Assembly (NCBI RefSeq): GCF_000735345.1
Contig: NZ_JMPJ01000074.1
Coordinates: forward strand, 1 to 63,938
Length of the DNA: 63,938 nucleotides
Direction: 5' to 3'
DNA from: Ewingella americana ATCC 33852
Lineage (GTDB): Bacteria; Pseudomonadota; Gammaproteobacteria; Enterobacterales; Enterobacteriaceae
Under the pieces are notes generated by a model, which did not search any database, was not told the DNA's origin, and saw only the letters and a program-made list of their open reading frames with translations. Positions 30,681-51,804 of this stretch are shown here, piece after piece. Made by a program: the position numbers and the translations under genes. Position 1 is the first letter of the stretch, and each line of letters starts with the position of its first letter.

Positions 30681-31610
30681 TTATGCGGAGTGCGAAGCGC
30701 GCACAGCCAGTCTCCAAGCTTTGGGGGACAGACCGGTCTCTCGTTTAAAAATGGTATTGAAAGCACTCACCGAAGCATAACCCAGTGAGTGAGCCACCAC
30801 GGCAATCTGCTCTTCTCCTTCGGACAATGCGCGTTCGGCAAGACGCACGCGCCATTGAGTCAGATAGGCAATTGGGGTCATGCCCGCAATTACCCTGAAA
30901 TTTTGCGCAAAGGTGGTGCGTGACATGGCACAGGATTTAGCCAGCTCTTCCAGATGCCATTTACGGGCCGGATCGCCGTGTATCAGCTGTAATGCCGGAA
31001 CCAGACGTTTATCTGCAAGTATCCGCAACCACCCAGAAGATAGAACATCGCTGGTTTGCACATATTCTCTCAGGATATGAATAAACAGTAACTGCGCTAA
31101 GTGCGCGGAGGCCAGCTGTGAGCCAGCCCGAGCGTTACGGCGCTCCAGCACCAGTTGGTCGAGCAGCCAGCGAAAAGAGGCGGCTTGGTCTGAGGCTGCC
31201 GGTATGTGGATCCACGGCGGGAGGACATGCATTAGCAGCTTGCCGCTGGTGGGATTGAGCAGTATATGGCCCCCAATATGCTCAAAATCATCCCCTTCCC
31301 CCACGGCAACATCGACTTTACCTGCACCAGAAAACACGCTCATGGCGTCAACTGGCTCAACATCCGGATGGCTAGCGAGGATAAAAGATCGCTTGGCGCT
31401 CAGCAGCCCCACATCCCCCGTCGAAAACCGCACCGGGGCTGGCTCCCCTTGCAAAATGACCCAACAACTGCCTTTTACGATGGCGAAAAATTTGATTTTA
31501 TCCGGGGCAGGAAAGCGCAGCGCCCACTGACCACCCGCGGTAAAACCGCCAGTAACCAAAGACTGGGCCTGCGTGAGCTTGATGATGTCAGAAAATGGAT
31601 CATTGTTCAT
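30681..31610 (-). CDS. AraC-family regulator with N-terminal cupin domain
   Basis: The 309-residue product has a cupin-like ligand domain at about residues 20-190 (FFAIVKGSCWVILQGE, FSTGDVGLL) and a C-terminal AraC HTH pair (WHLEELAKSCAMSRTTFAQNFR and IAVVAHSLGYASVSAFNTIFKRETGLSPKAWR). The ATG at 31610 is used; the frame opens slightly earlier at a TTG. It is divergent from an extended-SDR gene with 113 bp between starts and probably activates it. This AraC subgroup commonly sits beside a reductase gene. Confidence 0.88.
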   Translation of the reverse strand: MNNDPFSDIIKLTQAQSLVTGGFTAGGQWALRFPAPDKIKFFAIVKGSCWVILQGEPAPVRFSTGDVGLLSAKRSFILASHPDVEPVDAMSVFSGAGKVDVAVGEGDDFEHIGGHILLNPTSGKLLMHVLPPWIHIPAASDQAASFRWLLDQLVLERRNARAGSQLASAHLAQLLFIHILREYVQTSDVLSSGWLRILADKRLVPALQLIHGDPARKWHLEELAKSCAMSRTTFAQNFRVIAGMTPIAYLTQWRVRLAERALSEGEEQIAVVAHSLGYASVSAFNTIFKRETGLSPKAWRLAVRASHSA

Positions 31611-48159: not shown

Positions 48160-48330
48160 TTGTTCATTCAGACCTCAGAATCAGGTGAAACCGATGTTCA
48201 GGCCCAAGCCATAGAGCTTCAGGCGAATGCGCTGCTTAAATTTTCTATGCTGGCAAAACAGGAAATTCTTCAGGGCCGAGGTATGTCAGTTAAAGAAGCA
48301 CGTCAGATACTGCGTGATGCGCGTAAATAA
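48160..48330 (+). CDS. Unannotated 56-residue protein with TTG start
   Basis: A plus-strand frame of 57 codons opens at TTG (48160), with GGAG eight bases before it, and ends at TAA 48328-48330. Upstream of the TTG the frame continues a few codons to a TGA with no ATG. The peptide (FIQTSESGETDVQAQAIEL; KFSMLAKQEILQGRGMSVKE; ARQILRDARK) is helix-rich with a basic C-terminus, resembling small antitoxin- or regulator-like proteins; a VKEARQILR motif near the end supports a real helix. Amino-acid use is ordinary for a coding region. It has no visible partner toxin. Confidence 0.6.
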   Translation: MFIQTSESGETDVQAQAIELQANALLKFSMLAKQEILQGRGMSVKEARQILRDARK

Positions 48331-48400
48331 AAGGCTTTGGGATTAGAGTCGCTAGAACAGCAGCATTGTCCCTCGCACTGAAAAGATAGCACTAACCCAA

Positions 48401-48455
48401 AACAACTCAGCCCAGAAGGCAATCTATTCGATTGCACATTCCGGGCTGAGTTGTT
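48401..48455 (-). terminator. Intrinsic terminator after mesD
   Basis: AACAACTCAGCCC (48401-48413) and GGGCTGAGTTGTT (48443-48455) form a 13-bp stem, with an inner GCAATC/GATTGC stem. On the minus strand a T-run follows, 25 bp beyond the mesD stop. Confidence 0.88.
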
Positions 48456-48480
48456 TCATCTTAAAGCGCGTTTGGCGGAA

Positions 48481-49512
48481 TTATTTAGCCAGCAGCTCTT
48501 TACGGACGATTTCTGCACCTGCACTCAGGGCATCCAGCTTGCCGCGCGCTACGCCGCGAGGAAGTGGGATCATGCCGCAGTTGGTGCATGGGTAGAGCTT
48601 GTCGGCGTCAACGAATTGCAGCGCTTTGCGGAGCGTGGCGGCAACTTCCTCTGGGGTTTCAACGGTGTTGCTTGCCACATCAATCGCGCCAACCATCACT
48701 TTCTTACCGCGAATCAGCTCCATCAACTCCATTGGAACGTGGGAGTTGTGGCATTCCAGAGAGATAATATCGATGTTGGATTTTTGCAGTTTCGGGAAGA
48801 TCTCTTCGTACTGTCTCCACTCGGTGCCCAGCGTCTTTTTCCAATCGGTGTTGGCTTTGATGCCGTAGCCGTAGCAGATATGCACCGCGGTTTCGCATTT
48901 CAGGCCCTCGATGGCGCGTTCCAGAGTAGCAATACCCCAGTCATTCACTTCATCGAAGAATACGTTAAAGGCTGGCTCGTCGAACTGGATGATATCCACA
49001 CCTGCGGCTTCCAACTCTTTGGCTTCTTCGTTGAGGATTTTTGCAAATTCCCACGCCAGTTTTTCGCGGCTTTTGTAGTGGTTGTCATAAAGGGTGTCGA
49101 TCATGGTCATAGGACCCGGCAGCGCCCACTTGATTGGTTGGTCAGTCTGCTTACGCAAGAACTTGGCATCTTCAACAAACACCGACTTCTGGCGGCTTAC
49201 CGGGCCAACCACGGTTGGGACGCTGGCTTCATAGCGGTCGCGGATTTTAACGATTTCACGTTTCTCAAAATCCACACCGTTCAGGTGCTCAATAAAGGTG
49301 GTCACGAAGTGCTGACGCGTTTGCTCGCCGTCGCTGACGATATCAATACCAGCCTGCTGTTGATCTTCCAGACACAGACGCAGAGCATCCTGCTTGCCGT
49401 CGATGAGTTCTTGATCTTGCAATTTCCAAGGTGACCAAAGCTGCTCTGGCTGTGCCAGCCATGAAGGCTTAGGTAAGCTGCCAGCCGTTGAAGTCGGTAA
49501 TAACTTTTTCAT
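48481..49512 (-). CDS. mesD: MesD, core-MetE-type folate-independent methionine synthase
   Basis: The 343-residue product corresponds to the C-terminal catalytic half of cobalamin-independent methionine synthase (MetE, about 750 residues). The zinc ligands are all present: His211 and Cys213 (VHICYG), Glu253 (ISLECHN) and Cys312 (PCTNCGM). It lacks the N-terminal folate-binding half. Core MetE proteins beside a DUF1852 gene (mesX) were described as MesD, which makes methionine without folate and depends on MesX. The ATG at 49512 is preferred over 49542, which overlaps mesX; AGGG precedes it. It follows mesX by 26 bp in one operon, with a MetJ operator upstream. Confidence 0.9.
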   Translation of the reverse strand: MKKLLPTSTAGSLPKPSWLAQPEQLWSPWKLQDQELIDGKQDALRLCLEDQQQAGIDIVSDGEQTRQHFVTTFIEHLNGVDFEKREIVKIRDRYEASVPTVVGPVSRQKSVFVEDAKFLRKQTDQPIKWALPGPMTMIDTLYDNHYKSREKLAWEFAKILNEEAKELEAAGVDIIQFDEPAFNVFFDEVNDWGIATLERAIEGLKCETAVHICYGYGIKANTDWKKTLGTEWRQYEEIFPKLQKSNIDIISLECHNSHVPMELMELIRGKKVMVGAIDVASNTVETPEEVAATLRKALQFVDADKLYPCTNCGMIPLPRGVARGKLDALSAGAEIVRKELLAK

Positions 49513-49538
49513 AATAGATGACCCTGTGTTTTGGTTAA

Positions 49539-50519
49539 TCAAAGAACGGAATTAGCAGACCACTGCTCAAGAATAGTTTGGTGCGGTTTAATGAATTCTT
49601 CTTCAGTAAACTTCCCCTGCTCAACAGCTAATTGGCTACGTTCTTCGCGATCATAAACAATGCGAGTGAGTGAATAATCTTGCTGATTCAGGCTTGGCTG
49701 ATAGCAGCGACCCGCCGGAGAGTTGGCGTTATAAATCTCCGGGCGATAAATCTTCTGGAAGGTTTCCATGGTGCTGATGGTGCTGATCAGTTCCAGATTG
49801 GTGTAATCGCTGAGCAAATCACCGGCGAAATAGAACGCCAGCGGCGCAACGCTACCCGCAGGCATGAAGTAGCGAGCCTGCAAACCCATTCTGCCGAAAT
49901 AGAGGTCAGTCAAAGAGGATTGGTCATCTTGCTCATATTCAATGCCCAGGATCGGGTGAACATTGCCAGTGCGGTTATAAACATTCTTGCTTGAGACGCT
50001 CAGACAGATAACCGGCGTCTTGTTGAAGTTGTTCTTGTAGGCTTCTGAATTAATGAAGCATTTGAAGATGTTGCCGTGCAACTCACCAAAGTTTTCTGGG
50101 ATGGTGAATTGGTTTTTGCCCTTATTGTGCTCGGACAGCAACACGCTGAAGTCGTAATCGCGCACATAAGAGGAGAAGTTATTGCCGACAATACCTTCAA
50201 TGCGCTCGTTGGTTTTTTTATCAACGATATTGGTTTTCAAAATTTCAATAACCGGGAAGGAAGTGCCTGCGCTTTCAATCTTCAATTCAACGGAAATGAT
50301 GTCCAGTTCAACGGCGTAGCGATCTGATTTTGGGTTATCCCAGTTCGCCAGAGAGTTGAAACGATTGTCGATCATCACTAATGCGTTGTGCAGGTTCTCT
50401 TGGCGTTTCTCGCCGCGAGCCAAATTAGCAAAGTTAGTCGTAATGCGCGTGCTATTCGAGGGATTGTAATTCTCGTCAAAACGCAAACTTTTGGTCGTAA
50501 ATGTGAAATTATTATTCAT
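49539..50519 (-). CDS. mesX: MesX (DUF1852), partner of MesD
   Basis: The 326-residue product is a DUF1852 protein (SLRFDENYNPSNSTRITTNFA near the start, VYNRTGNVHPILGIEYEQDD, MPAGSVAPLAFYFAGDLLSD). This family is found next to core MetE and is required for methionine synthesis by MesD in the few species tested; its chemistry, thought to involve oxygen, is not settled. No signal peptide is visible. It is first in the mesX-mesD unit. The leader upstream is about 200 bases long and contains an 11-codon reading frame and a tandem met box. Confidence 0.9.
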   Translation of the reverse strand: MNNNFTFTTKSLRFDENYNPSNSTRITTNFANLARGEKRQENLHNALVMIDNRFNSLANWDNPKSDRYAVELDIISVELKIESAGTSFPVIEILKTNIVDKKTNERIEGIVGNNFSSYVRDYDFSVLLSEHNKGKNQFTIPENFGELHGNIFKCFINSEAYKNNFNKTPVICLSVSSKNVYNRTGNVHPILGIEYEQDDQSSLTDLYFGRMGLQARYFMPAGSVAPLAFYFAGDLLSDYTNLELISTISTMETFQKIYRPEIYNANSPAGRCYQPSLNQQDYSLTRIVYDREERSQLAVEQGKFTEEEFIKPHQTILEQWSANSVL

Positions 50520-50570
50520 TGTAATTTGGTTCCTAACTTCCGGTATAAAATATGGTTAATTGCTCTTTAC

Positions 50571-50606
50571 TCAGGACTTCCTAATTTTCTGTTTTAGTTT
50601 TGTCAT
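50571..50606 (-). CDS. Candidate 11-residue leader peptide before mesX
   Basis: On the minus strand AAGGG lies seven bases before an ATG that opens MTKLKQKIRKS and a TGA stop. It is in the mesX leader, 51 bases before the mesX start. The peptide has no run of Met codons. It could be a translated leader or chance. Confidence 0.3.
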   Translation of the reverse strand: MTKLKQKIRKS

Positions 50607-50716
50607 AAAGTCGCCCTTATGTGATCTACAGCAAATCTCTGAAGACAATTTATGCCCTAGTCGCTGGATGAGGAAAAGTGATTTTATTTCATTGAACATG
50701 AGCTATTTTCATGTCC

Positions 50717-50732
50717 AGACGTATAGACGTCT
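50717..50732. promoter_or_regulatory. MetJ operator (two tandem met boxes) before mesX
   Basis: AGACGTAT (50717-50724) is directly followed by AGACGTCT (50725-50732), the exact consensus met box. The pair matches the consensus at 15 of 16 positions, and weaker partial boxes flank it. MetJ with S-adenosylmethionine binds such tandem 8-bp sites and represses methionine genes. The site is 198 bp upstream of mesX. Confidence 0.88.
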
Positions 50733-50833
50733 GTAACGCTATACGAAACCCTTTGCCACTAAGGGCTTACGGCCATTTTTGCTAAATGAGCGGCGAGAGA
50801 AATTTTGGTAAGTCTTTGTATCATGAAAAAATT

Positions 50834-50855
50834 AAAGCGCCCCGAGAGGCGCTTT
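50834..50855 (-). terminator. Intrinsic terminator after the LysR gene
   Basis: AAAGCGCC and GGCGCTTT form an 8-bp stem with a 6-base loop. Read toward lower coordinates it runs into AATTTTTTC. It lies 74 bp past the LysR stop. Confidence 0.75.
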
Positions 50856-50928
50856 ATTAGGTTTTGGATGATGAAAAAACGGCAATTATCAGAAAATCTG
50901 AGTCATGGCGAAAGCCGATCCTAGGCAC

Positions 50929-51804
50929 CTAACTCTCCTCATGCCGCGTCAGCCACTCCTCCAACCTTTTCAATGTGACTTCTTTCGGGCTGTCTTCATT
51001 CCACACCAGATAATAGGTCAGAGAACCACAGTCCAGTTGATGGTTTTCCATGGCAATCAGGGTGCCTGAACGCAGCTCATCTTCAACCAGTACGCGCTGC
51101 GCCAGCGCGATACCCTGTCCCTCCAGTGCTGCCTGATAGGCCAGTGCTGAACTCTCCATATCCCGCCGGTGCGGCAGCTGGTTCATATCGACATTAAAAG
51201 CCCGGCACCACAACTGCCAATCATCCGGACGCCCGCGCACCATCAGCAGCGTGTGCTGTGACAAACCTTCAAGTGCCATATTTGCCTTGCGCCCCTCGGT
51301 CGGTCGGCACACCGGCACCAAGACGTTTTTCACCAGCGGCGCGGCATGGCGCTGTGGCCAAACTCCGTTACCAAGCCGGATCGCCGCGTCGCAGTCCGTG
51401 GCGTCATCCCACTCAGATGCCGTGGTCAGGCGGACGTCGATATCGGGATATGCCATTTGGAATTTCGCCAGTCGCGGGATAAGCCAGCGAGTGGCAAAAG
51501 TAGTGAAGGAGTGCAGGCGGATCACCGACCGCCCGGCGTTACGGTGCAGCACCTGACCCGCGCGGCGCAGCCCCTCAAAGTGTTCGCTAATTTGCTGAAA
51601 ATAGGCATTGCCGGGGTGTGTGAGGATTAACCCGCGCCCCTGCCGCTGAAAAAGCGCGGTGCCGAAGTGGTCTTCAAGCAGCCGAATTTGTCGGCTGACC
51701 GCGCCCGGCGTCACCGACATGCTTTCCGCCGCCGCGCGCACGCTGCCGGTTTTGGCAACGAATTCAAAAGCTAATAAAGCATTTAAGGGAGGGAGTTCAC
51801 GCAT
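50929..51804 (-). CDS. LysR-family regulator, GcvA-like
   Basis: The 291-residue product has the LysR HTH (LPPLNALLAFEFVAKTGSVR, SVTPGAVSRQIRLLEDHFG) and the effector domain with the W-P-Q-R-H-A/APLVKNVLVPVC pattern common in GcvA-like members. The start at 51804 is preferred; a longer frame to 51900 lies over the intergenic region. It is divergent from an aldehyde dehydrogenase gene, with an inverted repeat between them, and probably regulates the ALDH-MFS pair. Confidence 0.88.
   Translation of the reverse strand: MRELPPLNALLAFEFVAKTGSVRAAAESMSVTPGAVSRQIRLLEDHFGTALFQRQGRGLILTHPGNAYFQQISEHFEGLRRAGQVLHRNAGRSVIRLHSFTTFATRWLIPRLAKFQMAYPDIDVRLTTASEWDDATDCDAAIRLGNGVWPQRHAAPLVKNVLVPVCRPTEGRKANMALEGLSQHTLLMVRGRPDDWQLWCRAFNVDMNQLPHRRDMESSALAYQAALEGQGIALAQRVLVEDELRSGTLIAMENHQLDCGSLTYYLVWNEDSPKEVTLKRLEEWLTRHEES

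Follow-up and report, generated by a model that had tools for sequence, protein, structure and literature searches.

The mesXD Locus

The window, i.e., the whole stretch of 63,938 nucleotides that was analysed, carries mesXD, an intact two-gene operon whose features are collected in Table 1. The first gene, mesX, encodes a DUF1852 protein of family PF08908, now named MesX in Pfam and described there as a 'putative oxygenase'. It is the sole PF08908 match in the 4.87-Mb genome, a second MesX gene being absent, and no clear relative of the MesX model was found among solved structures. MesX is thought to be the partner protein that supplies MesD with its methyl group. The second gene, mesD, follows after a gap of 26 bp and encodes a core methionine synthase consisting of the catalytic domain alone: Meth_synt_2 extends over 5–328, and the N-terminal folate-binding domain was not found in MesD (Meth_synt_1, 21.8 bits, below the cut-off of 27). 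The nearest solved chain is 3rpd_A, with 704.5 bits over residues 3–342. In an alignment with the genome's own MetE the MesD zinc ligands H211, C213, E253, and C312 line up with those of MetE, and S12, E63, and D178 were assigned as homocysteine residues; the roles of both sets were described by Price et al. 2021 (PMC7857596). The family matches and this alignment confirm the initial annotation, which had read the pair as a core MetE-type MesD with these four ligands, located 26 bp after a DUF1852 MesX. In a set of 80 named loci, listed from 588 confirmed ones, mesD is the next gene after mesX in all 80, with an identity of 84–97%.

Table 1. Features of the mesXD locus and strong MetJ operators upstream of mesX in this and other genomes.
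Feature	Position	Strand	Details
Inverted repeat behind mesD, probable terminator	48400–48456		opposite-strand self match 81%
mesD, core methionine synthase	48481–49512	minus	343 aa; NCBIfam NF006589, 707.3 bits (cut-off 392)
mesX (DUF1852, PF08908)	49539–50519	minus	326 aa; Pfam MesX, 597.5 bits (cut-off 25)
mesX 5' leader	50520–50640	minus	diverged, without the covarying stem of relatives
−10-like element GGCATAAAT	50648–50656	minus	
Second, weaker MetR-like box TGAAATAAAATCAC	50678–50691	minus	
Putative MetR site ATGAAAATAGCTCAT	50698–50712	minus	4 bp from the met boxes
Putative MetJ operator, two tandem met boxes AGACGTATAGACGTCT	50717–50732	plus	15/16 positions
Terminator-like hairpin behind the upstream LysR gene, separating it from mesXD	50833–50856	minus	
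Strong MetJ operator, window and G169 (same genus)	−213		
Strong MetJ operator, Pantoea rwandensis (L063)	−88		
Strong MetJ operator, Rheinheimera pacifica (L112)	−48		

The inverted repeat behind mesD was not listed by the terminator scan. Beyond it lies a small frame on the plus strand (48191–48331), annotated as YjfB family in the Ewingella plasmid pB61a, which is described below. On the other side of the operon, the best NCBIfam match of the adjacent LysR gene (50929–51804) is GcvA, at 257.3 bits below the cut-off of 288. This gene is not favoured as a regulator of mesXD, since the terminator-like hairpin lies between them, and it is also disfavoured because approximately 7.5 kb separates it from mesX in pB61a.

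A reading under MetJ, such as that put forward in the initial annotation, presupposes a metJ gene, and the genome search found one (PF01340, 192.6 bits) along with complete metE (1124.5 bits) and metH (1900.7 bits) in the genome profile search. Also present is metR, beside metE and divergent from it (NF011950, 656 bits against a cut-off of 382). As metE and metH exist besides mesXD, the latter is the third methionine synthase of this genome, and according to Price et al. 2021 (PMC7857596) MesD is commonly an additional methionine synthase. A search of the window for relatives of the Acinetobacter and Shinella flavin reductases found none, and two flavin reductase genes are located elsewhere in the genome, away from mesXD. 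Such a gene follows mesD in 8 of the 80 named loci (of 588; three of the 80 were too short to judge), all from Acinetobacter, Rhizobium, or Shinella and none of them enteric.

The Putative MetR Site and Promoter Layout

Leyn et al. 2014 (PMC4239095) give the MetR motif as ATGAA-N5-TTCAT. The putative site ATGAAAATAGCTCAT agrees with it at 9 of 10 positions in the strict form and at 10 of 10 when Y is allowed, that is, when C is also accepted at the sixth defined position, a relaxation introduced once the scores for the strict form were known. A match of this kind arises by chance in 26 of 100 window shuffles, and the evidence for the site is therefore its conservation. Of the 80 named loci (of 588), 71 contain the strict motif with at most one mismatch (9/10 or 10/10), compared with 65 of 1600 shuffles. 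When upstream regions of mesX were pooled to 112, ATGAAN5YTCAT was matched at 10/10 in 93 of them and at 9/10 in a further 16, whereas control stretches inside mesX (n = 109) gave two matches at 10/10 and none at 9/10. These 112 regions are mutually related, 105 being distinct in the last 200 nt, and two of them, G198 and L046, apparently come from one genome (Ewingella americana E4), their mesX coordinates being the same, and this genome is thus counted twice. As for the loci from the family, 30 of the 51 MesX-bearing genomes gave loci and 29 were used; L031 was dropped owing to a misplaced mesX start.

The layout around the site is conserved as well. Spacing was counted in 108 regions, 4 of the 112 having been dropped: 100 of the 108 regions have a second box that follows the first after 6–8 bp, versus 8 of 2160 shuffles, and in 96 of the 108, versus 32 of 2160 shuffles, GGCATAAA follows the first box after 41–43 bp. 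No promoter was listed at the mesX −10-like element by a sigma-70 consensus scan. Judged from sequence, the two MetR-type boxes and the −10 element are the conserved mesX promoter in the regions examined.

This agrees with Leyn et al. 2014 (PMC4239095), where the PF08908-metE2 pair is a well-conserved predicted MetR target. In the account given by the same source the Moraxellaceae lack MetR; MetR-like boxes are nevertheless found in the Acinetobacter mesX upstream regions L106, L108, and L116, so another factor may read the motifs in some lineages. In L106 an upstream LysR gene (1262–2131) could read them. In A. baumannii methylcobalamin is reported to reduce transcription of the DUF1852 gene, by log2 8.3 in one strain and 8.1 in another (PMC12892962), as would be expected if the homocysteine level drives the DUF1852 gene.

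The Putative MetJ Operator

The met-box scan confirmed the tandem met boxes claimed by the initial annotation: AGACGTATAGACGTCT differs from two met boxes by a single mismatch. With at most one mismatch allowed, just two places are found in the 4.87-Mb genome, upstream of mesX and of metN, against approximately 0.06 expected by arithmetic in random sequence of this size. At up to three mismatches the window contains one match (0.09 expected; 9 of 100 shuffles reach one), and the genome contains 10 places as opposed to 12 for a reversed control pattern. As there is no excess at this level, weight is given only to near-perfect matches. The three-mismatch places include the upstream regions of metA, metJ-metB, and metF (these names and that of metN were read off translations, without a family search). 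None of 1600 shuffles reached 13/16, and the score never exceeded 11 in the stretches inside mesX (n = 109).

A strong operator, i.e., at least 14/16, is rare, being present in 4 of the 112 mesX upstream regions. The operator of the window is identical in G169 and in plasmid pB61a, and the two strong operators outside Ewingella, from L063 and L112, sit at other positions than that of Ewingella. Two other genomes of the genus, G024 and G198, contain the MetR site and no strong MetJ operator. From this distribution the strong operators look like separate gains. L070 (13/16 at −323), L102, and L111 (both 12/16) were left out of the count, which misses degenerate operators (by hand count, the upstream region of the genome's own metE scores 12/16), and weak MetJ control of other mesX genes may therefore occur. 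The tie to MetJ drawn in the initial annotation stands insofar as a putative operator is present in a metJ-bearing genome, but the conserved regulatory link of mesXD is the MetR site, which that annotation had overlooked. In Leyn et al. 2014 (PMC4239095) metE2 is a predicted genome-specific MetJ target. Reading towards mesX, the first MetR box comes 4 bp after the operator and the −10 element approximately 60 bp after it; as operator and −10 element do not overlap, repression by MetJ is not obvious.

The mesX Leader

In many relatives complementary leader arms, e.g., ATGAAGACTG and CAGTTTTCAT, are present between the promoter and mesX, and a long-range covarying stem was observed at about 2385–2500 in the mesX leaders of the named relatives L041–L120. 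In an unselected swap test, the leader's own pairing was better than swapped pairing (near-duplicates removed, 71 of 79 named leaders; p = 5 × 10^−8, with a mean difference of −2.77 kcal/mol), while five other region pairs used as controls gave p values of 0.23 to 0.98. With the family loci added (87 of 110 leaders), p was 1 × 10^−9. Both p values are too small because the sequences are related, and no more than 32 of 87 leaders had their own pairing in the top tenth of the swaps. The swap test is independent of alignment A2, which comprises 34 leaders picked by eye from the 80 named loci and whose counts consequently lean towards the stem. In A2, 9 of the 12 stem pairs are changed on both sides, the covariation score is 0.249 versus 0.156 for shuffled alignments (none of 500 reached it) and no higher than 0.105 on sliding, and RNAalifold recovers eight of the same pairs. 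A mechanical alignment of 101 of the 110 leaders gave no structure in RNAalifold.

No plausible Rfam match was found in the window at 50500–50800, nor any match up to an E-value of 1 in the leaders of 10 relatives, absence from Rfam not being equivalent to novelty. A leader model, R1, which is mainly a sequence model, had matches in 52 of 70 sources at E ≤ 1 (42 of them at E < 0.005), every one in a mesX leader; four of the 70 test sources (L041, L045, L046, and L071) were among its 34 building sequences. The window leader matches R1 weakly (19.2 bits, E = 0.27), as do those of G169 and pB61a (22.8 and 21.6 bits, respectively). Its pairing is no better than the swaps (rank 0.6), and its folding is like that of shuffled sequences (z-score 0.05). 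Taken together, these results indicate that this lineage, which has the MetJ operator, lacks the leader stem. One reading is that in many Enterobacterales the mesX messenger has a structured leader, with a long-range stem joining its beginning to the segment directly ahead of the ribosome-binding site, which senses a metabolite of the methionine cycle or a regulatory RNA, and that it decayed in the Ewingella plasmid lineage of the window, where a more recently acquired MetJ operator assumed the end-product control. This is considered unlikely, if conceivable; a change of control mode from leader stem to MetJ is only a suggestion, one such lineage being well covered. A leader peptide was also considered and rejected: the window contains an 11-codon frame, and by eye no peptide is kept among the relatives' leaders listed.

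Probable Plasmid Setting and Ancestry

The best plasmid match for MesX is a protein of 99.7% identity encoded by pB61a (NZ_CP048244.1), a 331-kb plasmid of Ewingella americana B6-1. Collinear blocks of 95–98% identity with this plasmid are found between positions 30685 and 59152 of the window, and the collinearity is weaker over 1–24000, of which 37% is covered. In pB61a mesX and the LysR gene are separated by an additional segment of approximately 7.5 kb that contains autotransporter genes (L157, 12203–19750, compared with 50770–50928 in the window), and the MetJ and MetR sites are intact despite this stretch just upstream of them. The collinearity of this draft contig with pB61a indicates that mesXD is most likely located on a large Ewingella plasmid. 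Large plasmids often carry mesX: MesX genes were observed on 209 of 72,556 plasmid records, mainly from Pantoea (71), Acinetobacter (28), and Agrobacterium (21).

The enteric copies are common, MesX being present in 51 of 198 genomes of the family, and it was not found in two of the six genomes of the genus. The description of mesXD as a native enteric copy thus had to be qualified: it is not rare, nor, given the collinearity with pB61a, is it clearly chromosomal. A tree of MesX proteins pairs the window with G169 at the end of a long stem (100/100, 0.23) and separates both from G024, G198, and E. americana E4, although the backbone is weak. MetE is 93% identical between this genome and G024/G198, whereas mesX diverges more, with 81% identity to that of E4.

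Proposed Mechanism and Its Alternatives

The best explanation, in our assessment quite probable, is that mesXD is an O2-dependent methionine operon on a probable plasmid, activated by MetR and, in this lineage, turned down by MetJ with SAM; it joins the observed genes, residues, sites, and conservation to binding, direction of control, hindrance, and plasmid location, which are inferred from them. The operon would convert homocysteine into methionine with the use of oxygen and without methyl-folate or B12. Homocysteine would be bound by MesD as a zinc thiolate, and the methyl group would be delivered by MesX through an oxygen-requiring reaction, as deduced here from homologues. In these, genetics showed that MesD requires MesX and oxygen but not MetF or cobalamin, and in E. 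coli MesD and MesX yield methionine without MetF only in air; the source of the methyl group of MesX is left unsettled in that work (Price et al. 2021, PMC7857596). MetR would activate a weak mesX promoter at the two boxes, 20–22 bp apart, and the operon is accordingly proposed to be switched on when homocysteine builds up. In the plasmid lineage MetJ with SAM would turn mesXD down via the operator upstream of the first MetR box, and since this operator lies so far from the −10 element, MetJ probably acts by hindering MetR.

Three other explanations were weighed. MetJ could be the main regulator, with the MetR motif incidental; its 15/16 operator equals that of metN in quality and is retained in three Ewingella records (the window, G169, and pB61a). 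This is nonetheless very unlikely, as nearly all regions scanned contain the MetR site, the second box, and the −10 element, a strong MetJ operator being present in just 4 of 112, and as two congeneric genomes, G024 and G198, have the MetR site without such an operator. Conversely, the met boxes could be a chance or inert match and MetR the sole controller, which would suit their position some 60 bp upstream of the −10 element, the absence of any genome excess over the reversed pattern at three mismatches or fewer, and the shuffles of the window (9 of 100) that contain one match at that level. An inert match is somewhat less improbable than a leading role for MetJ, but still improbable: at one mismatch or fewer the operator shares the genome with a single other place, before metN, and a score of 15/16 exceeds all shuffle and coding controls.

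The operon might also be an idle plasmid passenger without a role in methionine synthesis, given that metE and metH are present and would suffice, that two of the six genomes of the genus do without MesX, and that no flavin reductase gene lies beside mesXD. Yet both frames are intact and MesX is 99.7% identical to the pB61a copy, the ligands and the promoter are retained, and two flavin reductase genes exist elsewhere in the genome; an idle operon is accordingly regarded as a poor prospect, on a par with MetJ as the main regulator. A methionine operon under MetR, with MetJ added in this lineage, remains the preferred reading.

Relation to Known Systems

The Ewingella mesXD resembles the MesD-MesX systems of Acinetobacter baylyi (ACIAD3523-3524) and Sphingomonas koreensis described by Price, Deutschbauer and Arkin in 2021, in which the core synthase likewise lacks the folate-binding half; the zinc and homocysteine residues and the adjacent DUF1852 partner are common to all of them. 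Unlike the Acinetobacter system, mesXD has no flavin reductase gene alongside, and it differs from the systems of Price et al. in its location on a probable plasmid and in its putative MetJ operator. PDB 3RPD, identified as MesD with bound selenomethionine (PMC7857596), bears on structure only and not on regulation. Plasmid pB61a shares with the window MesX at 99.7% identity, the MetJ and MetR sites, and collinear neighbours, and differs by the additional 7.5 kb or so with autotransporter genes.

The links to MetJ and MetR are not new, as both were predicted by Leyn et al. 2014 (PMC4239095). Their MetR regulon includes a MetR motif before the same gene pair, to which the two-box and −10 layout measured here over 108 regions is an addition to what is found in that source; their MetJ regulon likewise includes tandem met boxes before the same kind of gene, metE2, and in the Ewingella mesXD these are placed upstream of the MetR boxes. 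The regulation of mesXD is thus mainly as predicted in 2014 and the system is known in outline; the present analysis adds how the MetR promoter is laid out, how rarely a strong MetJ operator occurs, the probable location on a plasmid, and the covarying leader stem seen in relatives.

Enteric mesXD operons are found in tractable relatives of E. coli under predicted control by MetR, and here also by MetJ, so that known mutations could be used to set their expression for the study of MesX chemistry. The strong MetJ operators, rare and variously placed, illustrate on a small scale how a repressor site can be gained more than once next to an activator site that is conserved. Should the leader stem prove genuine and regulatory, it would count as a novel RNA element associated with a methionine gene; failing that, mesXD belongs to a known type of system, with some regulation particular to its lineage. 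In a study of an ompR mutant of Klebsiella, VK055_0304-0305, encoding a DUF1852 protein and a methionine synthase, are reported as upregulated together with gcvTHP (PMC10269446).
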